From Bacteroidaceae bacterium (GTDB lineage: Bacteria > Bacteroidota > Bacteroidia > Bacteroidales > Bacteroidaceae), in contig JAFXAR010000040.1 in NCBI GenBank assembly GCA_017516885.1, forward strand, positions 1 to 35,424: a stretch of DNA of 35,424 bases, written 5' to 3'. Below are positions 659 through 35,334 of the stretch, in pieces. The stretch's first letter is position 1; the number at the start of each line of letters is the position of its first letter. The notes under the pieces were generated by a model. The model ran no database searches. It worked only from the letters and a program-made list of their open reading frames with translations, and was not told the origin of the DNA. A program made the position numbers and the translations under genes.

Positions 659-3600
659 TTACACCCATCCTTTCCGTACAACCCATTTGTATACAATAGG
701 TATTATGTAGATATTAAGGAAGGTTGACGAAAGCAGTCCGCCTAAAACTACAACAGCCATTGGGCTCTGAATTTCATTGCCTGATGCCGAACCGTTCATA
801 ATCATTGGAACAAGCGCCAGCGCCGATGTGAAGGCTGTCATAAGTATTGGCGTAAGGCGGTCGGCTGAACCGTGCAGAACCGCCTCTTCAAGCGACACGC
901 CGTCTGCTCTCAGGTGCTGGTAGCGCGATACCAGCAGAATTCCGTTGCGGGTTGCAATGCCAAACAGTGTTATAAGTCCTATTATGGCAGGTATGCTCAT
1001 TACTGCCGATGTACAGTAGGTTGCTATTATGCCTCCAATCAGTGCCAGCGGCAAGTTTAGCAGTACCACGGCAGAGAGTGTTCCGCTGCGGAACTCGCTG
1101 TAAAGCAGCACAAATACAACAAGAATTGCCACAAGGGTAGTGAGCAGGAGCGTGCGCGATGCCGAATCGGCGCTCTCAAACTGCCCGCCGAACTCAAGGC
1201 GGTAGCCCTCCTCTAACTTTAGTTCCTTGTTCAGGTGTTCCCTGATGCGGTCAACTGTTCCGGCAACATCGCTGTTGGCAATGTTTGCCGATACAACTAC
1301 CTTGCGCTGTACATTCTCGCGGCTTATGCTTCCCGGGCCTCCGGCCGAAACAATTGATGCAACCTCTTCGAGTGCAACCTTTCCCTTCGGGGTGTCAATG
1401 AGTGCGCGCTTTACACCATCCACGCTTTCTGTGTATTCCTTGTTTAATCTTATAATAAGGTCGAAACTGCGCTCCTGTTCATATACGCTGCCCACTCTTT
1501 TTCCGGGGAATGCAGCATCAATGAAACTGTTGAACTCCTCCATGGTTATTCCGTAGAGAGCAAGTTTCTCGCGGTCGGCGCGTATCTGCAGCTGGGGTGT
1601 CTCCACCTGCTGCTCAACATTTACGTCTACCACCTCGGGGAAGGCCTTCAGCAGTTCCTTTATCTCAATTCCCTTGCGGAAGAGGGTGCTTAGGTCGGGC
1701 CCGAATATCTTTATTGCAAGGTCGGCCTGAGTGCCCGACACCATGTGGTCAATGCGGTGCTCAAGCGGCTGTCCCACAGAGGTTACAACTCCCGGGACTT
1801 TGGCAAGGCGGTCGCGCACGTCGGCAAGGAATTCGGCTTTGCTGCGGTTGGCGAGCTTGAAGTTTACATCAATCTCTGCGCCGTTAGAGGTCTGCGAGTG
1901 CTCGTCAAGCTCGCCGCGGCCAGTTCGGCGCGCTGTGCTTGTTACCTCTGGAATCTGCAGCAGTTCCTTTTCTATTACCGAACCAATTCTGTTGCTCTCC
2001 TCAAGCGATACTCCGGGGCGGGATACGGCCGCAATGGTAAGTGCATTCTCGTTGAATTCAGGAAGGAAACTGCGCCCCATCTGGGTAAACAGGAATATGC
2101 ACACTGCAAAAACCAGCATCAGCGTTCCCGCAAAAATCTTTGCATGGCTGAGCACGAATGATAGCGATGCGCGGTATCCCTTCAACATCCAGCGCTCAAC
2201 CCAGTTCTTCTTTTCGGCCTTTGCGAGATGCTTGTCGCCCGACAGCATCATCTTGCAGAGCAGCGGAGTAATAGTCATTGCCACTACAAGCGACATTACA
2301 AGAGCCACAAGGTATGCAATGCCAAGCGGCTTCAGCATTCTGCCCTCAAGTCCGCTAAGGAAGAAGAGCGGCATGAATGTTACCATTATTATAAGGGTTG
2401 CATGGATGATTGAGGCGCGTATTTCCGATGATGCCTCGTATACAACCGTGAAGGCCGCTTTTCTCTCCTCCTTGGGCAGGCGGTGGTTCTCGCGCAGTCT
2501 TTTATACACATTCTCCACGTCAATAATGGCATCGTCAACAAGAGAGCCAATGGCAATGCACATGCCGCCGAGCGTCATTGTGTTTATGTCCATGCCCAAA
2601 AGGTTAAGCACTATCACAGTGCCCAGCAGCGACATTGGTATGGCAAGCAGCGAGATGAATGTTGTGCGTATGCTTGTAAGAAAAAGGAACAGCACAAGTA
2701 TTACGCATATTGCGCCCTCAATGAGAGAGCGTCCCACATTGTTTACCGATGACTGTATATAGTCGGCCTGGCGGAAAATCTCCGTGTCTAACTTTACATC
2801 GGCGGGGAGCGATTTTGCTATCTCCTTGAGGTTCTGTTCAATGTTCGCGGTTACGCTGAGCGTGTTCACGCCAGGCTGCTTCGATATTGAGAGAATGATT
2901 GCCGGAGAACCGTTGAGCGAGGCGTATCCCTGCTTTACGGCTGGAGCGATGACAACATCGGCAACATCGGCAACGCGTATGCTCTTTTCGCCATCGGCCT
3001 TTACTACAGTGCTTCCAAGTTCATTGACGTTGTTGCTGCGCCCCATTCCGCGCAGATTATACTCGTTGCCATAGTCACGGAGAACGCCTGCGCCCATGTT
3101 TACGCTCATGGCCGATGCCGCGCTTTCAAGCTCAGCCATTGTAACTCCGTACATTTCCATTTTCACCGGGTCGGCAAGCACCTTGTACTGCTTGTAGTCG
3201 CCGCCTATTATGGTTACATTTGAAACTCCGCCGGTAGCAAGAATGGCCGGCTTTATTACCCAGTCGGCAAGAGTGCGCAGTTCCATCATTGAGGTGCTGT
3301 CGGCGCTCATGCCCACAAACATAACCTCTCCCATTACGCTTGACTGTGGCGCGAGCATGGGGATTATTCCATCGGGGAGCTGCCCCGACAGAAGGCTCAT
3401 TTTTTCACTTATTATCTGGCGTGCACGGTATATGTCCATGCCCCAGTCAAATTCAACCCACACGAAGGAGAATCCCTGTGACGATGAAGAGCGTACGCGG
3501 CGCACGTTTGTTGCACCGTTCACAGCGGTCTCAATGGGGAATGTGACAAGGCGCTCAACCTCTTCGGGCGCCATGTTGGGCGCGTCTGTGAGAATTACCA

Positions 3601-3739
3601 CTGTGGGCATTGTGAGGTCGGGGAATACGTCAACCTCTATGTTCTTTGCCGAATATGTTCCGCCAATGACTGTAAGTACAACAGCTAAAAGGATGAACAG
3701 CTTGTTGTTAAGCGAGAATTTTATTATTCTGTTTAGCAT
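659..3739 (-). CDS. Heavy-metal efflux RND transporter, CusA/CzcA-type inner-membrane pump
   Basis: This 1026-residue protein has the length and layout of the heavy-metal branch of the RND family: a first membrane helix at about residues 12-29, a large periplasmic loop beginning with EVDVFPDLTMPTVVI, a helix bundle at about 335-500, a second periplasmic loop, and a closing bundle at about 865-1020. The fourth-helix motif GSLVDDAIIDVEN (about 398-410) carries the acidic residues used for proton coupling in this branch. The family uses the proton gradient to drive metal ions or small toxic compounds out through an adaptor and an outer-membrane channel. The adaptor gene ends 11 bases upstream. 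The Cu/Ag versus Zn/Co/Cd specificity cannot be read with confidence, and the His-rich adaptor only hints at Zn, Co, Ni or Cu. No outer-membrane channel gene is present nearby. Confidence 0.9.
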   Translation of the reverse strand: MLNRIIKFSLNNKLFILLAVVLTVIGGTYSAKNIEVDVFPDLTMPTVVILTDAPNMAPEEVERLVTFPIETAVNGATNVRRVRSSSSQGFSFVWVEFDWGMDIYRARQIISEKMSLLSGQLPDGIIPMLAPQSSVMGEVMFVGMSADSTSMMELRTLADWVIKPAILATGGVSNVTIIGGDYKQYKVLADPVKMEMYGVTMAELESAASAMSVNMGAGVLRDYGNEYNLRGMGRSNNVNELGSTVVKADGEKSIRVADVADVVIAPAVKQGYASLNGSPAIILSISKQPGVNTLSVTANIEQNLKEIAKSLPADVKLDTEIFRQADYIQSSVNNVGRSLIEGAICVILVLFLFLTSIRTTFISLLAIPMSLLGTVIVLNLLGMDINTMTLGGMCIAIGSLVDDAIIDVENVYKRLRENHRLPKEERKAAFTVVYEASSEIRASIIHATLIIMVTFMPLFFLSGLEGRMLKPLGIAYLVALVMSLVVAMTITPLLCKMMLSGDKHLAKAEKKNWVERWMLKGYRASLSFVLSHAKIFAGTLMLVFAVCIFLFTQMGRSFLPEFNENALTIAAVSRPGVSLEESNRIGSVIEKELLQIPEVTSTARRTGRGELDEHSQTSNGAEIDVNFKLANRSKAEFLADVRDRLAKVPGVVTSVGQPLEHRIDHMVSGTQADLAIKIFGPDLSTLFRKGIEIKELLKAFPEVVDVNVEQQVETPQLQIRADREKLALYGITMEEFNSFIDAAFPGKRVGSVYEQERSFDLIIRLNKEYTESVDGVKRALIDTPKGKVALEEVASIVSAGGPGSISRENVQRKVVVSANIANSDVAGTVDRIREHLNKELKLEEGYRLEFGGQFESADSASRTLLLTTLVAILVVFVLLYSEFRSGTLSAVVLLNLPLALIGGIIATYCTSAVMSIPAIIGLITLFGIATRNGILLVSRYQHLRADGVSLEEAVLHGSADRLTPILMTAFTSALALVPMIMNGSASGNEIQSPMAVVVLGGLLSSTFLNIYIIPIVYKWVVRKGWV

Positions 3740-3750
3740 GGCATACGGAT

Positions 3751-5418
3751 TTAGTGTACATGGCCTGCATGCGGGTCAAGAGCCTCAGCGCCCTGGGATA
3801 GCTTCAGTGATACTGCGCCTTTAGTTACGATGCGCTCGCCGGCCTTCAGACCCTTTTCAATTCTCACTCTTATGCCATCGGTGCTTCCTGCCTCAACGGC
3901 GCGTTTCTCAAATGATATGGGGGAATTCTGCACAAAGACGAACAGATTGCCCATCTCCTCCACAAGTGCGCTGCGGGGGATTGTCACAGCGTGCTCGCCG
4001 CTTTCGGAAATAATATACAGCGTTACAATGCTTCCCGGTACAATATCCTGCATTTTGTCAACGGTTATTGTTATAGGCAGCATGTTGCAGCTGTTCGCTG
4101 AACTGCCAATGGCGGTGATTGAGCCTCCGCACTTGCTCATGGAGTATGTTGCGCCCGTGGGCAGTTCAATGTTAACGTCGCTGACGCTCTTAAGCTGTCC
4201 GGCAAAGCGCATTGGAAGTTCGGCGGTAATGTTCATGCGTCCGTCGGACTGCACTGTGGCAAGCGGTGTGCCCGGCTCTACATAATCGCCGTTGGAGACT
4301 GCGAGCGAGGCAATATATCCATCTCTTGCCGCTCTAAGGGTTACCTTGCCGCCGGAGAAACTGCGCTTCATGCTGTTGAATTTTGCTTCGGCCTGCCTGT
4401 AGAGTGCCTCTGCTGCCTGAAAGTCGCGCTCCGATACAACTTTTTCGTTGAAAAGGAGCTTTTTTCTTTCGTAGTCGGCTTTTGAAAGTTTATAGTTGCT
4501 CTCGGCCTCGGCATATTTCACTGCGGCATCGTTGTCGGTAACGTCACTGCCTTCAAGATAGAACAGCGGTTCGCCTTTTGATACCGTTTTTCCCTCTACT
4601 ACATTCCCGGCAAACTGCACCTTGCCGCTTGTGGTTGCTACAATTGTTGTGAAGTTCTCAGGTGCGGCGCTTGCCTTCGCTGCAATTTTTACAGCGCCGT
4701 TGAAGCGGCTCTCCTTGACTTCGGCCGTTGCAAAATCAATTTTCCAGCTCTGCTCCTTGCTGAATGCAATGTCGTTGGCCTTGCCTTCGGTAATCTCGCC
4801 ATGGCCTGTGTGCGAATGCTCTGCATGAGCGTGTCCATTAGCATGTTCATGCGTGTGGCTGTGCGAGTGCTCATGGGCTTCACCGTGGTTATGGTGCTCG
4901 TGATTATGATGTTCATGGCCGTGGGCCTCCTCGGCGTGGTTATGCCCATGGTCGTGGTCATGGCCGCCTTCGGAGTGATTGTGCGAGTGCCCATGATTGT
5001 GACCGTGGTTATCGCCTTCTGCCGATACTGCTATGTGGAAGTGCGCCTTGTCGCCGCCTGTCTCAAAAGCCAGAGTGCCCTCGCCGTTGGCCTCGGGAGT
5101 TATGTCAAAGTTGAAAATGCCGGGCTTTTGTGCTGTTGCTGTAACGCTCTGCACTTTTTCGCCCACCTTGAGTGTTGCCTTGGCCTCTTTGTGTGCCGTA
5201 GGCTTAAAGTTCTCAAGGTCTGTGACAAAAAGGGTTATGCATGCCTTTTTGCCGGCATGCATGCCTTCGTGCTGCATGAAGAACTCGTTGTTGCCTGTGT
5301 AGGCTGTGAAGCTGTGCACATGAACGTGTGCATGCTCTTCAGCGCTTTCCTCGTTGTGGCTGTGGCCGCAACCGAATAGGGCAATAGATATAATTGCTGA
5401 TAAAAGTATGTTTTTCAT
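3751..5418 (-). CDS. RND efflux periplasmic adaptor lipoprotein with a long histidine-rich insert
   Basis: This 555-residue protein is a membrane-fusion adaptor for the pump encoded next to it. Residues 1-17 are a lipoprotein signal (ALFGC, lipid Cys17). Residues 35-130 form an extra N-terminal domain. Residues 136-207 are a metal-binding-like stretch with about 30 histidines in about 70 residues, mostly HGH, HNH and HEH patterns. The adaptor fold follows: a half-lipoyl unit at about 262-290 (TTSGKVQFAGNVVEG), a coiled-coil hairpin at about 295-350, the second half-lipoyl at about 357-390 (LRAARDGYIASLAVSNGDYV), then the beta-barrel and membrane-proximal domains. The C-terminus again carries HAGHVH. 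It should sit in the periplasm, anchored by lipid. The His-rich region could chelate and pass on metal ions; that role is inferred. Confidence 0.9.
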   Translation of the reverse strand: MKNILLSAIISIALFGCGHSHNEESAEEHAHVHVHSFTAYTGNNEFFMQHEGMHAGKKACITLFVTDLENFKPTAHKEAKATLKVGEKVQSVTATAQKPGIFNFDITPEANGEGTLAFETGGDKAHFHIAVSAEGDNHGHNHGHSHNHSEGGHDHDHGHNHAEEAHGHEHHNHEHHNHGEAHEHSHSHTHEHANGHAHAEHSHTGHGEITEGKANDIAFSKEQSWKIDFATAEVKESRFNGAVKIAAKASAAPENFTTIVATTSGKVQFAGNVVEGKTVSKGEPLFYLEGSDVTDNDAAVKYAEAESNYKLSKADYERKKLLFNEKVVSERDFQAAEALYRQAEAKFNSMKRSFSGGKVTLRAARDGYIASLAVSNGDYVEPGTPLATVQSDGRMNITAELPMRFAGQLKSVSDVNIELPTGATYSMSKCGGSITAIGSSANSCNMLPITITVDKMQDIVPGSIVTLYIISESGEHAVTIPRSALVEEMGNLFVFVQNSPISFEKRAVEAGSTDGIRVRIEKGLKAGERIVTKGAVSLKLSQGAEALDPHAGHVH

Positions 5419-28368: not shown

Positions 28369-28403
28369 GAGGGTGACTTCTGGGTCACCCTCATTTCTTT
28401 TTT
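28369..28403 (+). terminator. Rho-independent terminator after the M23 peptidase gene
   Basis: GAGGGTGAC (28369-28377) pairs with GTCACCCTC (28384-28392) over a six-base loop and is followed by TTTCTTTTTT (28394-28403). It stops plus-strand transcripts. The stop codon of the oppositely oriented AraC-type gene lies inside the stem. Confidence 0.8.
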
Positions 28404-28753
28404 AGGTACTCGCTGGGTGTCATGCCGTACTCTCTTTTAAATGTTCTGCGGAAAGAGAATGCATTGCGGAAACCGCATTTCTTTGCCAAAGAGTTGATAT
28501 TGCTCTTCTCTCTGTTGCTTTTCTGCTTCATGAAGTACGCTAATCTCAGCTTGCCTAACAGAACATAGAAACTGATGCCGAGTTCGCCGTTTACGAAGCG
28601 TGATGCATAGCTGCGGTTAGTCCCAAGGTCGGCAGCAAATTGTTCTATTGTGTAGTTGCTGTCGGTAAAGAACGGTGGTTCTGCTGCCAGCAATCTTACA
28701 TATCTGCTCTTGATTCTGTTCATTACATCCGCCATAAACCGTATGTTTTTCAT
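28391..28753 (-). CDS. Stand-alone AraC-type DNA-binding protein
   Basis: The 120-residue product (from ATG 28753) is almost only an AraC/XylS DNA-binding domain. A first helix-turn-helix is at about 34-57 (YTIEQFAADLGTNRSYASRFVNG). The second is at about 84-120, containing NSLAKKCGFRNAFSFRRTFKREYG and the typical ending MTPSEYLKKK. There is no sensor, receiver or membrane part. An in-frame GTG at 28798 is rejected because it lies upstream of the promoter. ATGs at 28735 and 28723 are also possible and would give a less extreme leader. Upstream are two direct repeats with 21-bp spacing at -33, the same layout as before the surface-protein gene at 31444, so it may regulate itself and that gene. 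It follows the hybrid sensor gene on the same strand (129-bp gap). Confidence 0.82.
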   Translation of the reverse strand: MKNIRFMADVMNRIKSRYVRLLAAEPPFFTDSNYTIEQFAADLGTNRSYASRFVNGELGISFYVLLGKLRLAYFMKQKSNREKSNINSLAKKCGFRNAFSFRRTFKREYGMTPSEYLKKK

Positions 28754-28763
28754 GTTTGTGCAG

Positions 28764-28820
28764 CAAAGTTGCCATGAAAAAGCATATTTCTTTTTCACTC
28801 AAAGGCTTCTGTTTTTCACT
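28764..28820 (-). promoter_or_regulatory. Direct-repeat operator and -7 box of the small AraC gene
   Basis: On the minus strand AGTGAAAAA occurs at 28820-28812 and again at 28799-28791, exactly 21 bp apart. After 19 more bases, CAACTTTG (28771-28764) stands at the -7 place (one change from TAnnTTTG). Two direct repeats 21 bp apart, with the nearer one in the -33 position, is the classical arrangement for an AraC-type activator. The layout repeats upstream of 31444. Confidence 0.6.
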
Positions 28821-28882
28821 TGAAGAACAATTTTAAGGTATAAATGGTTCTTTCAGGTTAAAGTTGTGCGCAGAAGATACAT

Positions 28883-31219
28883 TTACTGGTTCTTGCGGTA
28901 TTCGGTTGGTGTTATGTTGAATTCGGCCTTAAAGGCGCGGCTGAAGTAACTTGGTGTTTCAAAACCGCATACAGCCTGTATTTCGCCCATTGACATGTTG
29001 CTGTTCCGCAGCAGATATTTGGCTCTTGCGAGTTTTCGCTGGCGTATGTATATGGTGGTATTGCTTCCTGTTATGCTGTTTATCTTGCGGTTTAGCGTAG
29101 ATATGCTCATTATCATGTGGCTGGCAAGCATTGCTGCGTTCAGGTCGCAATCCATAATGTTGTCGTGAATATATTTATTTACCTGCATGATGAACTCTTG
29201 CTCGCTCCGTCTGATGCCTCTAATCGTATCGTTGTGGTCGGCGGTGTCGGCATCTTCTATCTGCTGGCTGTATTTTTTCTTTAGTATTTCTCTCTGTTCA
29301 AGCATCTTGCGAACCATTAGCAATAGTTCATCGGGGATGAACGGCTTGCCAAGATAAACTTCGGCGCCGGCATCAAAGCCTGCCAGGCGGTCATTGTTCT
29401 CTGTCCTTGCCGATACTACAATTATAGGCAGATGGCTGGTCTCCTTGTTTGCCTTTATTGCCTTTATAAGTTCAAGGCCATCTATTTCGGGCATCATAAT
29501 ATCGGTTATAACAAGCATGGGCTGCTTTTGTGCAATAAAATCCAGTGCTTCCTTGCCGTTCCCTGCCCAGCAGAAACTGTAGCCTTCGTTCTTCAGCATC
29601 TGGGTTATCAGCAGGGCAACATCCTTGTCGTCCTCTGCTACGAGAACATAATCCTGCAAGTCGCCCCCATGTATTTCGTTTATTGACAATGAATCATCTT
29701 TTGTGTGCATCTCCTGCCTGCTCTTGTTCAGCTCATTTATCTCCACTTCATCTCTCTCGCCTTTGTTGTATTCTATCATCTCGTTCACTAAGGTAAGCAG
29801 TTCGCCGCTTTTTCGTACAACCGCATCAAACTCCTTCTGTGCCACTTCGTTGTTGTTTGGGATGAACCGTTTGAGTTCATGTGTCATGCCAAGAACCACA
29901 GTAAGAGGCGTGCGCAGCTGGTGTGTTATTCCACGGTAAAAATCCTGGCGTTCGCGGTTTGTTTTTTCAAGCAGGGCGTTTGCCCTTTTGCGCAGAAGCG
30001 AGGCGCGTACCAATGTTGCAATGGCAATAAGGATAAGCAGCAGAACTACTATGCTGCTCCAAACGAAAATGTTGAACATTTCTTTTTCATGCTCGGCTTG
30101 CGCAAGAGCCTCTTCTACCTCCTTTTTCCTTTTTGATATTTCGTGGTTTAGACGGAGGTTCTGCATTTTTACTCGGTTGTCATCAATTTCGGCGCTGTCC
30201 TTGTATGCAATGGATTTTTTCTTGTTTTCAAGTGCTTTTTCAAAATCTCCGTTCCTCTCGTCTATTTGGGATTGCAATGAGTATATGCCGGAGAGACGTC
30301 CTTTTGCCTTTATTCTTAATGCGGTTTGCAGTGCCTCGCTGCAGTATTTTTCGGCATCCCTGATGTTGCCTTCCTTGAGGCTGAGTCCGGCAAGCGACAT
30401 GCATGGGTTTAGCCAATGCCATATATCTCCGGTCTCTAAACCAATATTGTAGCTCTTGATGTAATTGTTTCGTGCCTCGTTGTAATTGCCGGCAATCTCC
30501 TCTAATTCGCCTATATTCTGGTAGCAGAGGCTTATGCCTACGCGGTTGTTGCACTCTATGTTCTTTTCCATTGAAAGGCTGTAGCAGATGCGTGCAGAGT
30601 CCAAATTGCCTTGTATCTCCTTGATTGCGCCTATGTTGGCATAGTTGATTGCTTCCCCGGTTGCGCTGCCAAGTTCCCTTTCTCCTTTCAGGGCGCGGTG
30701 GAAAAGCTCTTCGGCAACCTCGTAATTTCCAAGTGACAGCATTACGTTCCCCAGTCCGTTAAATGTGCGTACCCTGTTCTTGCGTGCAGTATAAGAGGTG
30801 TCATTGGCCGTGCTTTCGCACAGGTCAAGTGCTGCATAATGATATATGCTTGCCTCTTCAAGGTCGCCTATGCGTCTGAAGTTTGTTCCCTGATTGTTCA
30901 ATGCAATTATAAGCTGAAGAGTATCCTTGAGTTCCTTTGCGCCCTTAATGCATTCTTCGTGTACTGCTATTGCCGAATCAAAGTCTGATTTGTTGCGGTG
31001 CATGCTCCCTAACTTTTGCCGTATGAGCAGCGATGCTCTTTTTTCGTTCAGCGAATCGTAATGCTCAATATATTTCTTTAGTTTTCCAATTTCCTTAATG
31101 CTGTCGGCAATAGCTGCGGCCTCTATGTCGCAATTATTGCTGCTTTCGGCGGTCTTTTCTCCGCATGAAATTTGTGCAAGCAGCAGTAATGCCGTGAATA
31201 TAAGATGTATTCTTTTCAT
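28883..31219 (-). CDS. Hybrid two-component regulator without an ATPase domain (TPR sensor, His domain, receiver, AraC domain)
   Basis: The 778-residue protein has an export or lipoprotein signal (1-19, LLLLAQISC), tetratricopeptide-like repeats in the periplasm (about 60-345), a coiled-coil, and a membrane helix (about 384-404). A dimerisation/phosphoacceptor domain with the H-box ITHQLRTPL follows (His433). A receiver starts at about 523 with acidic EDD, phospho-acceptor Asp573 in ITDIMMPEIDG, Ser603 and Lys625. An AraC-type domain (about 672-778) ends ITPTEYRKNQ. The histidine-kinase ATPase domain (N, G1, G2 boxes, about 110 residues or more) is absent: only about 38 residues lie between His domain and receiver. 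It therefore cannot phosphorylate itself as an ordinary sensor would. I use ATG 31219 (signal peptide, promoter at 31241-31270) rather than the upstream TTG. Confidence 0.88.
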   Translation of the reverse strand: MKRIHLIFTALLLLAQISCGEKTAESSNNCDIEAAAIADSIKEIGKLKKYIEHYDSLNEKRASLLIRQKLGSMHRNKSDFDSAIAVHEECIKGAKELKDTLQLIIALNNQGTNFRRIGDLEEASIYHYAALDLCESTANDTSYTARKNRVRTFNGLGNVMLSLGNYEVAEELFHRALKGERELGSATGEAINYANIGAIKEIQGNLDSARICYSLSMEKNIECNNRVGISLCYQNIGELEEIAGNYNEARNNYIKSYNIGLETGDIWHWLNPCMSLAGLSLKEGNIRDAEKYCSEALQTALRIKAKGRLSGIYSLQSQIDERNGDFEKALENKKKSIAYKDSAEIDDNRVKMQNLRLNHEISKRKKEVEEALAQAEHEKEMFNIFVWSSIVVLLLILIAIATLVRASLLRKRANALLEKTNRERQDFYRGITHQLRTPLTVVLGMTHELKRFIPNNNEVAQKEFDAVVRKSGELLTLVNEMIEYNKGERDEVEINELNKSRQEMHTKDDSLSINEIHGGDLQDYVLVAEDDKDVALLITQMLKNEGYSFCWAGNGKEALDFIAQKQPMLVITDIMMPEIDGLELIKAIKANKETSHLPIIVVSARTENNDRLAGFDAGAEVYLGKPFIPDELLLMVRKMLEQREILKKKYSQQIEDADTADHNDTIRGIRRSEQEFIMQVNKYIHDNIMDCDLNAAMLASHMIMSISTLNRKINSITGSNTTIYIRQRKLARAKYLLRNSNMSMGEIQAVCGFETPSYFSRAFKAEFNITPTEYRKNQ

Positions 31220-31240
31220 GTGCTTATGCTTTGTTCTTCG

Positions 31241-31270
31241 CAAATGTAACCAAAAAGAACTCTGTATCAA
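31241..31270 (-). promoter_or_regulatory. Promoter of the hybrid regulator gene
   Basis: On the minus strand TACATTTG (31248-31241) is a perfect -7 box and TTG (31270-31268) lies 19 bp upstream. The start site would be near 31236, about 17 bases before the ATG at 31219. Confidence 0.6.
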
Positions 31271-31337
31271 GATTTTTTTTCATTCCGCAGTCATATTTTT
31301 ATGTATTGTGCCCTTATGCACCCTTTCTTGCGCCTTG

Positions 31338-31394
31338 AGTTAAAAACAATGCTTTTTAAGTGAAAAAAACTTATGATTTGTCTAAATATATTTG
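31338..31394 (+). promoter_or_regulatory. Direct-repeat operator and -7 box of the surface-protein gene
   Basis: AGTTAAAAA (31338-31346) and AGTGAAAAA (31359-31367) are exactly 21 bp apart. After 19 bases follows TATATTTG (31387-31394), a perfect -7 box. No TTTG is present at -33; the nearer repeat takes its place. The repeat, its 21-bp period and the 19-base gap are the same as upstream of the small AraC gene (28764-28820), and the two 19-base gaps share TATG, TTT and TC at the same positions. Confidence 0.65.
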
Positions 31395-31443: not shown

Positions 31444-34400
31444 ATGAAAAAACAGTTGTTAACCCTGTTGCTTATGATGGTTGGGATAACCTCATTTGCG
31501 CAAAGCGGCTGGAGCGACCCTTCGGGGAATTACCAGGAGCAGACAGTTGTGTATGTGGCCGTCAATTGCGGTGACTACAACATCTACTCTGGTGTTACAG
31601 TACCCCAGGTGGCCGCTTTTATCGGTGATGAAATCCGTGCGTTGACTGAATCGTACCAGACGCTTGGCAATTACAAAGTCTATGCCATGCGAGTGGGCGG
31701 TACGAGCGACGACAATGGCAGTGTCATTGATTTCAAGCTCTTTGACCCTGTGAGCGGTCTTATCTATCCTCTTGAGATGACCGATGAGCAGTATGCGGCT
31801 GCCGAGATTACCTATATGGGCGATTTCACTTATCAGGAGGACCAGAGCATCAAGCTCTTTATCGGTTCTGCAACCCCTGCAAATACTATGAGATTCACCT
31901 ACAAAGATGCAGTACGCAATAGCATATTCATGAATGTGGGTGATGTGATGACCATTGAGGACGGCGGTTCTATTGAATACCTCTTCGTCAGGGAAACCGA
32001 TGGCTATGAAATGCCGGCAACAACCCCCGAGGCCACTCTTGAATGGGACCTCACTTCTGCATCGGACTATGTTTCAATTGAGGATAATGTCATTAAGGCC
32101 CTCAATTCAACTCCTAATGATGGCATTAATGTAACAGCCCGTGCAGGTAGTCTTGAAATGACTGTCAATATCTTTGTTTATCAGCCGGTAACAGAAATTG
32201 CAATTGCTGATGCCGAAATCTATCTCGGTGCAGACGGCTTTGCTCCCGAAGTTGTTTATAATGGTGGGGAATCAGAGCCGACTACACCCGGAGTTACATT
32301 GACTGTTGATAACGTGGAAGTTGTCCGGATTGACGGCGGTACCACAATTGTTCCGGTAGCAAAAGGTTCAGTTACTGTAACTGCTGTTGCCAATGACAAG
32401 CCCGAAGTTACTACAACATTCCAGGTGAATGTGATTTCTGCCCTTCAGGAGTTTACTTATGAAGGTGAAATAGAGTTTATTATACGCGACGAGAACTCCA
32501 AGAACATGATGGATTCCGTCAACCGCCCGATATTCGATTGGGTGATTGATGAGAACAGCGGTGCGCCTGTGGTTGAACCCAATGAGGAGTATACAATAGC
32601 CTCGGAAGATGAGTCGGTTGTTCGCGTAGAGTATGACGATACAGGTACAAAACTCGTTGCTGTCACTGCTGTAAAGAAGGGTGAAACAAACCTTGTGTTC
32701 ACAAGTAAGTACGACCCCACAATGAGTGTAAAGGTAAGGACCGTAATCAGGCAGGCTGTATATGGAGTGAACTTCCTGACAGTCAATAACGAGGATGTAA
32801 CCGGTGCAGAGACCCGTCCAAAGGCCGATGTATATGTCGGCGAGACTGTTACTGTTGTGGCAGAAATCAATCCGAAGGATGCCGACTATACCGATTTCTC
32901 ATTCCGTTTCGTTACATCGGATGGTGTGGAAATCCCAACTGAAACTATCGGAGTAGAAGTTGAAAACCCAAAGATTAGCGGCGGGCAGTGCATAATGGAC
33001 TTTGTGTTCAATACAATACCTGATGTTGAGGTATGCATTGAGGCTTATGCCGATAGCGTGAGGTCCGATAATGTGCTTCTCAACGTATATAACAGGGTAG
33101 AGAACATTTATGTATCATTGGAGGATGAGTATTGGATTGATAGCGACGGCGATAGCATTGAATTAAAATATTCGGTTGAACCGGGTAATGTGAAGAATGA
33201 AGAGTTTACGGTTGAATCTTCAAATCCTGAAGTTGCCGAGATTATCAAGAGCGATGTTGCCGGTGTCTGCCATTTGCATGCGTATGCTCCAGGCGAGGTT
33301 ACATTCACATTCAAAAGCGATGAAAACCCCGATGTGGCAGTTGAATATTATACCGTTATCAAGCGCACACCTACCGGCGTGAAGATTACAAGCATTGCCG
33401 GTCAGGAGCCCAGCCCCAACGGTATGACAGTTGCTGTAGGCCAGACAGTTAAGGCTGTTGCCGCTGTTGATCCCAGCGACGCAACAATAGAGTCGTTCGA
33501 GATGTCCATTGTAAATGGCGACGGCATGCCGGTCGGTGATGCCGAGGTTGAAATTGCCGAGGTTACGCTCAACGATGCAAAGACAGAGTGCAGCATCACA
33601 TTCCGCTTCATTACTGTACCTCAGGATCGTGTATTTGTCAAGGCTGCTGTAAACGAAACTATTACCGACCAGGTAAATCTGCTTGTAGTACAGTCGGTTA
33701 ATGAAATTCAGTTGTCCGAGACCGAAAAGACAATATGGTTCGGTAATGAGCTGATTGAATTCTCAATCGCCGCAACAGCTCTCCCCGAGGATGCTACAAA
33801 CAAGAATATCATTGTTGAGGTTGATGATAATGTTATAGTAGAGTATTTGGGTGTAAATGAGGCTACAGGTATGCATGATTTCCGCACAATGAACAAGGGT
33901 ACTGCTACCATCACCTTCACAAGCGAGGATAACCCATCTGTAGTTGCAAAGTGTGTTGTGAATGTAAAGAGAAAAGTGACTGAAATCGCTTTCGATGGTT
34001 TTAACGAACCGCTCTACAACGACGGCGTTGCACGCGAGGTTGCACTGATATTCTGGCCCGAGGATGCTGATTTCGATGCAAGTGCATTGAGCGTAAGGAT
34101 AGAGAGTACGCAGTTCAATTTCGATTACTATGGCTGGAATGTTGTCAAGGTAGAACAAGGTGAGGTTTCAGGCAATAGCGTAGCATTCGAGTTCACTCCA
34201 ATGGCACTCTGCCAGAATTCAAATGTGATATTTGAGTATGATGCAGCCAGCGTTGAGGGTGATTCTGAGATGCTTACAAGCAGCGGTATGGTAAGCGTTA
34301 TGGAAAAACTTACACTTGAGGGCGGCTGGAGCTGGATTTCATTGACATCGGCAATGTTTGCTCCCGAGGCAATTAAGGATGGTTTTGTAGAGGCACGCAG

Positions 34401-35334
34401 CCGCACCGACCTTGTCTTCAACGATGCAAAATGGGGCCCCTTCGGCTCTCTGACAATGTTTGACCAAAGTCAGGCATATAAGATAAAGATGCAGGATAAT
34501 ATTAAACCGGTTACTGTATATGCAACACTTGAGGGTGTCATGAACTATGACGGCGCTATCGAAAGCAAGGAGTTCATTAAGGGCTGGAACTGGGTATCTT
34601 ATCCTTATGAGTACCGCTATCCGGTTGAGGATATTTTCAATGCGGCAAACTTTGCCGAAGGTGACATTATCCTCTCAAAGAACGACGGCTTCGTTACATC
34701 GACCGGCGGTGTTTGGGCTGGCACACTCAGCCAGCTTGTTCCCAACGAGGGTTATATGATATACACAGCAAACGCATTTACTTGCGAGATGCCTAACCGC
34801 TTCTCTCTTGAGCAGGGTGAGTTTGAAGCTTCCGCCGGAACTGAAATTCCAGCTCCGGCCGGTGTTGCAGCAAGAGAGCGCAGTGTATGGGTTTATGACG
34901 GCAGCCGCTTCGCAAACTCAATGGCAGTTATTGCCAAGATTGATATTGAGGAGTGCGAGAAGTACACAATTGGTGCATTCGTGGGCGACGAGTGCCGTGG
35001 CGAGGGGCGCTTCATCAATGGTCTTGCATTCATTTCTGTTGCGGGTGAGGCCGATGAGAATGTAACATTCCGCTTATATAATAAGGTATCGGGCGAATTT
35101 ATTGACCTTGACCGTGAACTTCAGTTCGCAGGAATGGCCGGTTCTGTAAAGAACCCTGTTACAATGGGCACAATTGAGGGTACAACAGGCATTGACAATG
35201 TGAAAGGTGAAAACGGAAATGTGAAAGCTATCTATGACATTTCGGGCCGCAAGGTTGAGCAGATGACCGAGGGTGTCTATATAATAAAGGTACGCGAGGG
35301 TGACAGGATTGTAACAAAGAAAGTACGCAAGTAA
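31444..35334 (+). CDS. Large secreted Ig-like repeat protein with type IX secretion tail
   Basis: The 1296-residue protein has a signal peptide (1-20, LLTLLLMMVGITSFAQ). A module at about 35-145 contains AAFIGDEIRA and FKLFDPVSG. A series of Ig-like (Big_2-type) domains starts near residues 249, 333, 438, 552, 643, 752 and 845, with lead-ins such as VTEIAI, VENIYV, VNEIQL and VTEIAF. Two related modules follow: GGWSWISLTS (about 960) and KGWNWVSYPY (about 1045). A further module at about 1147-1245 (GAFVGDECRGEG, FRLYNKVSG) resembles the N-terminal one. The C-terminus from about 1249 has IYDISGRKVEQMTEGVYIIKVREG and ends TKKVRK, a type A sorting signal of the type IX secretion system. It is probably displayed on the cell surface. 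Binding target and function are unknown. Its promoter carries the 21-bp direct repeats. Confidence 0.88.
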   Translation: MKKQLLTLLLMMVGITSFAQSGWSDPSGNYQEQTVVYVAVNCGDYNIYSGVTVPQVAAFIGDEIRALTESYQTLGNYKVYAMRVGGTSDDNGSVIDFKLFDPVSGLIYPLEMTDEQYAAAEITYMGDFTYQEDQSIKLFIGSATPANTMRFTYKDAVRNSIFMNVGDVMTIEDGGSIEYLFVRETDGYEMPATTPEATLEWDLTSASDYVSIEDNVIKALNSTPNDGINVTARAGSLEMTVNIFVYQPVTEIAIADAEIYLGADGFAPEVVYNGGESEPTTPGVTLTVDNVEVVRIDGGTTIVPVAKGSVTVTAVANDKPEVTTTFQVNVISALQEFTYEGEIEFIIRDENSKNMMDSVNRPIFDWVIDENSGAPVVEPNEEYTIASEDESVVRVEYDDTGTKLVAVTAVKKGETNLVFTSKYDPTMSVKVRTVIRQAVYGVNFLTVNNEDVTGAETRPKADVYVGETVTVVAEINPKDADYTDFSFRFVTSDGVEIPTETIGVEVENPKISGGQCIMDFVFNTIPDVEVCIEAYADSVRSDNVLLNVYNRVENIYVSLEDEYWIDSDGDSIELKYSVEPGNVKNEEFTVESSNPEVAEIIKSDVAGVCHLHAYAPGEVTFTFKSDENPDVAVEYYTVIKRTPTGVKITSIAGQEPSPNGMTVAVGQTVKAVAAVDPSDATIESFEMSIVNGDGMPVGDAEVEIAEVTLNDAKTECSITFRFITVPQDRVFVKAAVNETITDQVNLLVVQSVNEIQLSETEKTIWFGNELIEFSIAATALPEDATNKNIIVEVDDNVIVEYLGVNEATGMHDFRTMNKGTATITFTSEDNPSVVAKCVVNVKRKVTEIAFDGFNEPLYNDGVAREVALIFWPEDADFDASALSVRIESTQFNFDYYGWNVVKVEQGEVSGNSVAFEFTPMALCQNSNVIFEYDAASVEGDSEMLTSSGMVSVMEKLTLEGGWSWISLTSAMFAPEAIKDGFVEARSRTDLVFNDAKWGPFGSLTMFDQSQAYKIKMQDNIKPVTVYATLEGVMNYDGAIESKEFIKGWNWVSYPYEYRYPVEDIFNAANFAEGDIILSKNDGFVTSTGGVWAGTLSQLVPNEGYMIYTANAFTCEMPNRFSLEQGEFEASAGTEIPAPAGVAARERSVWVYDGSRFANSMAVIAKIDIEECEKYTIGAFVGDECRGEGRFINGLAFISVAGEADENVTFRLYNKVSGEFIDLDRELQFAGMAGSVKNPVTMGTIEGTTGIDNVKGENGNVKAIYDISGRKVEQMTEGVYIIKVREGDRIVTKKVRK

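Follow-up and report, generated by a model that had tools for sequence, protein, structure and literature searches.

Two genes in a Bacteroidaceae genome, one encoding a small AraC-type protein and the other a large surface protein, are each preceded by a pair of direct repeats, and a long gene with an AraC-type domain of its own lies between them. This arrangement, carried on a contig of 35,424 nucleotides (JAFXAR010000040.1, analysed over its whole length and hereafter called the window), raises the question of which protein acts on the repeats, and with what effect on the two genes. We propose, with a probability of roughly 0.7, that the product of the long gene (the regulator) binds the repeats, here named operator 1, as a dimer and activates both the surface-protein gene and the small AraC gene in the manner of a class II activator. 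The features on which the argument turns are as follows.

28391..28735, minus strand: small standalone AraC-type gene, 114 amino acids from its conserved start, with HTH_18 and HTH_AraC
28764..28771, minus strand: −7 box of the small AraC gene, CAACTTTG, 19 bp past operator 1
28791..28820, minus strand: operator 1 before the small AraC gene; the family consensus stretches the site to about 28829
28883..31219, minus strand: regulator gene, 778 codons, with TPRs, HisKA, REC and HTH_AraC
31338..31367, plus strand: operator 1 before the surface-protein gene, two half-sites with a 21-bp period; by the family consensus it starts at about 31329
31387..31394, plus strand: −7 box of the surface-protein gene, TATATTTG, 19 bp past operator 1
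31444..35334, plus strand: large surface-protein gene, 1296 amino acids, with a Big_2 domain

Direct reading and pattern search both placed AGTKAAAAA-N12-AGTKAAAAA before each of the two genes. The minus-strand site reads AGTGAAAAA-N12-AGTGAAAAA from 28820 to 28791, followed after 19 bases by CAACTTTG (28771-28764), and the plus-strand site reads AGTTAAAAA-N12-AGTGAAAAA from 31338 to 31367, followed after the same interval by TATATTTG (31387-31394). The sequence-only reading that first described these repeats, each at 19 bp from a −7 box, was thus right about their presence and position; it had called them identical, and they are near-identical, with G or T as the fourth base of the half-site. 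Its remark that the two 19-base gaps agree at 10 positions holds in this genome but does not describe a conserved feature: across 10 genomes the agreement ranges from 4 to 10 of 19 positions, and we rejected the likeness between the gaps as a signal.

With up to three mismatches allowed, operator 1 occurs twice in the window, against 0.17 occurrences expected in shuffled sequence. A scan of the whole assembly (2,313,520 bases in 75 contigs, 86.8% complete) with at most one mismatch returned two matches, both at the locus, and none for the reversed control, so near-exact copies are not scattered through this genome. At up to three mismatches the same scan gave 25 matches against 38 for the reversed control; background dominates at this threshold, and only near-exact matches carry meaning. 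When a bare repeat of the 21-bp type was sought within each site's own intergenic stretch, the small-AraC site was reached by 2 of 200 shuffles and the surface-gene site by 25 of 200, the latter without significance.

Across 44 genomes of the genus, a scan allowing at most one mismatch found operator 1 at 27 places in 15 genomes. Every exact match (13 of 13) precedes the surface gene or the small AraC gene; the one-mismatch matches divide into six at these two genes and eight elsewhere, against nine for the reversed pattern, and we treated the eight off-locus sites (G031, G007, G019, G015, G063 twice, G004 and G002), some of which fall in genomes lacking the regulator, as background. Chance as the origin of operator 1 is rejected by the shuffles, the whole-assembly scan and this 44-genome scan. 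A pattern with free spacing, TTTTMACT-N(4-24)-TTTTMACT, matched 31 times in the 44 genomes, 21 times at a period of 21 and four times at 22; by a tally made partly by hand, 22 of these 25 precede the two genes and three lie off the locus (G036, G015 and G004). The reversed control of this pattern gave 32 matches against 31 over all spacings, a comparison of totals and not spacing by spacing.

Selection by position at the two genes, with up to two mismatches (exact matches only for a 22-bp period), yielded 29 sites from 16 genomes: the divergent gene contributed 15 and the small AraC gene 14. Their period is 21 bp in 25 sites and 22 bp in four, these being the small-AraC sites of G014, G015, G032 and G063. 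G-T and A-A-A-A are invariant in both half-sites of all 29, partly as a result of the selection, which likewise makes the core columns of the logo partly circular; over the 29 sites the half-site stretches to about TGTYNTTTnAGTKAAAAA. Checked in relatives, the motif is therefore kept at both genes. Between clade representatives (one per clade, five at the surface gene and four at the small AraC gene, with clades set by eye), identity is 74–76% in the half-sites at the surface gene, 72–74% in those at the small AraC gene and 75–83% in the −7 box, and it is 39–40% in the 19-base gap and 27–37% in the upstream and leader sequence.

Two genomes depart from the usual layout. The divergent gene of G034 encodes a BspA-type LRR protein (L138 7613-11530) and stands behind a two-mismatch copy of operator 1. 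In G036 a regulator piece, the surface gene and the small AraC gene are found on three contigs, the sites of the last two near contig ends; we set this genome aside as a case of unlinked targets, as it may be one broken-up locus.

The promoters behind operator 1 share a strict geometry. The consensus described for Bacteroidota promoters is TAnnTTTG at −7 and TTTG near −33 (PMC7366714). The distance from operator 1 to the −7 place, which played no part in the choice of sites, is 19 bp at all 29, so that the spacing seen in the window held throughout the relatives. At the divergent-gene promoters the −7 place reads TAnnTTTG in 12 of 15, the other three having TATCTTGC or TACCTTGC, a poor match; at the small-AraC promoters it is CAnnTTTG instead of TAnnTTTG in 14 of 14. 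The −33 place is held by an A-run, not TTTG, at 29 of 29 sites, which makes these promoters look activator-dependent and, by a further step, points to activation through operator 1.

What kind of protein is encoded between the sites? It had been described as a gene with an AraC domain. A Pfam scan bore this out and corrected the picture: TPR repeats, HisKA, a receiver and an AraC-type domain, the last at about residues 660-778, lie in one chain. Neither the window regulator nor any of four relatives included in the scan (L134, L137, L157 and the split L140) gave a match to HATPase_c, and nine full-length rows of the regulator alignment have no room for it between HisKA and REC; the regulator relative of the outgroup G030 carries it. 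Judged by its domains, the regulator is a hybrid two-component (HTCS-like) protein without an ATPase domain, and given this absence its signal would arrive without kinase activity of its own. The N-terminus is lipoprotein-like by eye, with Cys19 invariant in all 11 aligned rows, and one membrane helix was likewise read by eye; the TPRs may form a periplasmic sensor. H433 of the H-box and D573 of the receiver are kept in 10 of 11 rows, the exception being G029, which has Arg and no receiver. The REC–DBD part matches a solved chain, 12aw, named as a hybrid two-component system protein (E 1e-42). In register with 12aw, the S/CHIP-DK contact motif of the window regulator reads SHLP, then E673 and K712; in the 10 rows that have a receiver, the first position is Asn in six, Ser in two, Ala in one and Cys in one, the D place is Glu in nine and Asp in one, and the K place is Lys in eight and Arg in two. 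The G029 form (L143 1077-2015) is reduced to 312 amino acids, with the AraC domain kept and neither TPRs nor a receiver, and two other frames, those of G020 and G031, break between HisKA and REC. Separately, the regulator frame of G005 is broken between receiver and AraC domain (L136 11722-11755).

The target genes differ in kind. The end of the surface protein resembles a type IX sorting tail, but its Por_Secre_tail score of 16.5 bits (E 0.01) falls short of the 27-bit cut-off, and the protein has no NCBIfam match at E 0.001; the genome contains a match to SprA (TIGR04189) and, at other places, six TIGR04183 tails over the cut-off. The SprA match, the −7 boxes and best database matches that are mostly to Bacteroidota point to membership of that phylum. 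For the small AraC gene, the open frame runs to 28798 and the start Met at 28735 is invariant in 14 aligned rows. This gene is present in 14 of the 44 genomes, and its HTH is strongly conserved. In G014 it follows the end of a transposase-like frame (by eye; L159 1-100) on a contig other than that of the regulator.

Operator 1 stands at the two genes in 15 of 15 genomes with the regulator. Among the remaining 29, 28 have neither and one (G010), whose contig ends inside the regulator gene, has operator 1. These sets were assembled by hand; the reduced form in G029 and the broken-off piece in G036 were taken as the regulator and the relative in the outgroup G030 was not, and two-mismatch sites were sought within the locus stretches retrieved. 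In G012 (82% complete) a relative of the surface gene is kept, with no match to the regulator or the small AraC and no site at up to three mismatches. In the outgroup no match to operator 1 was found at up to one mismatch, and the recognition helices of its regulator relative differ from those of the family. Repeats of 20–23 bp before the divergent secreted gene of the outgroup did not rise above shuffles (165 of 200), a weak test, since the surface-gene site of the window failed it too (25 of 200).

On the model that we prefer, the membrane-anchored regulator, with its TPR sensor, HisKA-type dimer stalk, receiver and AraC-type domain, would bind as a dimer to the tandem half-sites, which are spaced by about two helical turns. 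The nearer of them would fill the −33 place, and from there the regulator could recruit RNA polymerase to the −7 box, 19 bp further downstream. Two promoters would respond to it: that of the surface-protein gene, which is divergent, and that of the small AraC gene, which lies behind the regulator gene.

The co-occurrence could also mean that the small AraC binds operator 1 and activates its own gene and the surface gene, with the long regulator controlling something else. One operator 1 site lies directly in front of the small AraC gene, all 14 genomes with this gene have operator 1, and its HTH is, as noted, strongly conserved. The genome that separates the two candidates is G029 (85% complete), in which no match to the small AraC was found, yet a two-mismatch operator 1 site with the 19-bp distance is kept before the surface gene, and the recognition helices of the reduced regulator match the family (TLNRK and SPSYFSRAFKAEF kept). 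This one genome, with its degenerate site, favours the long regulator over the small AraC as the binder. In addition, a short AraC domain without a dimerisation part would seem better suited to a single site than to a 21-bp direct repeat, and a separate single element, operator 2 (described below), accompanies the small AraC. We therefore consider binding by the small AraC unlikely. The idea that a single AraC domain serves both genes, as the sequence-only reading had it without choosing between the two, is supported, since the conditions it had named for its own refutation went in its favour wherever sequence could decide them, and the long protein is the better candidate for the role.

That both proteins bind, in competition or cooperation, would agree with their common AraC type and with the two half-sites of operator 1, but their recognition helices differ and no finding calls for both; we regard joint binding as very unlikely. 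Repression by the regulator through operator 1 would fit the overlap of the nearer half-site with the −33 position, and at least one HTCS, BT2391, is reported as a repressor (PMC11253607); against this, the A-run in place of TTTG at −33 gives the promoters their activator-dependent look, and repression has in our estimate a slim prospect. Finally, the A-tracts, 21 bp apart with a T-run in between, could be phased and serve as an UP-like or bent-DNA element that needs no specific protein, but we reject bending as the sole explanation and hold this reading to be hardly tenable: all 58 half-sites have G and T ahead of the A-run, an invariance that is in part a product of the selection, and no exact match in the 44 genomes lies away from the two target genes of the regulator.

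The preferred reading, regulator-mediated activation from operator 1, has close parallels. Escherichia coli AraC binds 17-bp half-sites at araI1-araI2, a direct repeat 21 bp apart with the nearer half-site at −35. Operator 1 resembles this arrangement in its 21-bp direct repeat and in the placing of the nearer half-site at the upstream box of the promoter; E. coli AraC, unlike the regulator here, is soluble, binds arabinose and acts on another promoter type. Closer still are the HTCSs of Bacteroides, which are described as single chains that join a sensor to HisKA, a receiver and an AraC-type domain, and as adjoining their targets (PMC3878776, PMC11253607). For 16 HTCSs of B. thetaiotaomicron, the motifs published in PMC3878776 are direct repeats at an average distance of 21 bp, and the locus shares this trait, with repeats about 21 bp apart at the genes adjoining the regulator; on that account operator 1 is a new example of an established design. 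The locus differs from known HTCSs in the missing ATPase domain, by which the regulator is HTCS-like and lacks that feature of HTCS membership, in its TPR sensor, in having as targets a surface-protein gene and, behind a copy of the same operator, a small AraC gene, and in operator 2. BT4236, with Gln at the kinase phosphorylation site, has been taken as a hint of phosphorylation-independent HTCS action (PMC11253607), and the account in PMC3404733 is of an ordinary HTCS. FimS of Porphyromonas gingivalis is described as a periplasmic TPR sensor kinase that, with FimR, exerts positive control of fimbriae (PMC11053733); it has a separate response regulator, whereas our regulator carries an AraC domain in its own chain and has no ATPase domain. 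Among the 25 of 133 NCBIfam matches listed for the window regulator FimS does not appear; it does appear among those listed for the outgroup protein. In the open-access literature searched, we found no hybrid regulator without HATPase, or one tied to type IX secretion or TPRs.

A second element lies upstream of the regulator gene itself, where AARGGMACAWTWCRTAAAAAT was found with its core at 31295-31312 on the minus strand of the window.

31241..31248, minus strand: −7 box of the regulator gene, TACATTTG, read in the sequence
31295..31312, minus strand: proposed operator 2, GGCACAATACATAAAAAT, 64 bp upstream of the −7 box of the regulator

Operator 2 is present in 15 of 15 genomes with this type of regulator promoter, namely G010 and the 14 that have the small AraC; among them are G063, with no surface gene within the 3.5 kb upstream examined, and G036, whose regulator piece lies on another contig than the surface gene and whose regulator promoter reads TAATATTG at the −7 place. 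It occupies the equivalent place in L131-L141, L156, L157 and L030. Its distance to the −7 place is 63–67 bp (64 in eight of 15, 65 in four, and 63, 66 and 67 in one each), and an upstream position that varies so little suggests activation. Of 161 loci examined, 27 contain the pattern RGMACAWTWCRTAAA, a single time in each case, and every one of them is a copy of this locus. A looser form gave five matches in the window alone against 3.35 expected, which is not significant, so the case for operator 2 rests on conservation. Operator 2 is absent in front of the regulator genes of G029 and G030, the two relatives whose genomes gave no match to the small AraC. Going by this co-occurrence, the small AraC is the putative binder of operator 2. 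Single DNA-binding domains of the MarA/SoxS type, which the small AraC resembles as a small standalone AraC domain, bind the mar box; operator 2 is likewise one asymmetric site with GCAC or GAAC and an A-run downstream.

The regulator gene is also where homopolymeric tracts gather. In 401,370 bases (the window and L131-L161) there are only six G or C runs of at least seven bases, measuring 7–8, and all are at the regulator gene. Three are coding G-tracts between the HisKA and receiver parts (G004, G020 and G031; L134 9711, L139 1652 and L140 12323), with the frame open in G004 and lost in G020 and G031, the second piece staying an open frame. The other three are promoter tracts, 10 bp upstream of the −7 box of the regulator (G010, G014 and G032; L132 2532, L133 8094 and L156 55); the G015 promoter has a run of six, and the species of the window only GGGGGC at this place. 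Such runs are uncommon genome-wide (8–72 overlapping 7-base matches per genome in nine genomes). The six tracts amount to two events in two clades and are not independent, the test was framed after they had been seen, and assembly errors could contribute; within these limits, they suggest phase variation as a possibility.

More tentatively, and with greater doubt than confidence, the two operators could be joined in a feedback switch. The kinase-less regulator would turn on the small AraC and the surface protein through the direct-repeat operators, and the small AraC would turn on the regulator through the single operator 2 at its near-fixed distance from the promoter. The G-tracts, whether in the promoter stretch that separates operator 2 from the −7 box or at the HisKA/receiver junction, would make this switch phase-variable in two clades. 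Loss of the ATPase domain, accompanied in G029 by loss of the sensor repeats, the receiver and the H-box His, might then trace a path from a two-component system to a membrane-tethered one-component activator. Operator 2 and the G-tracts together suggest switch-like display of the large surface protein.

The locus thus offers a testable pairing of operator and targets for a TPR-type hybrid regulator, obtained from sequence alone, in which the neighbours of the regulator are a surface protein and a small regulator, not a polysaccharide locus. It also provides a natural series of species in which the regulator has no ATPase domain, and once no receiver, and the operator is retained; with this series it becomes testable whether a hybrid two-component protein can control DNA without phosphotransfer. 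Elsewhere in the window, at 659-5418 on the minus strand, an RND-type efflux pump gene lies beside that of a membrane-fusion-type protein with a long His-rich stretch (read by eye), and the pump possibly serves metal export.
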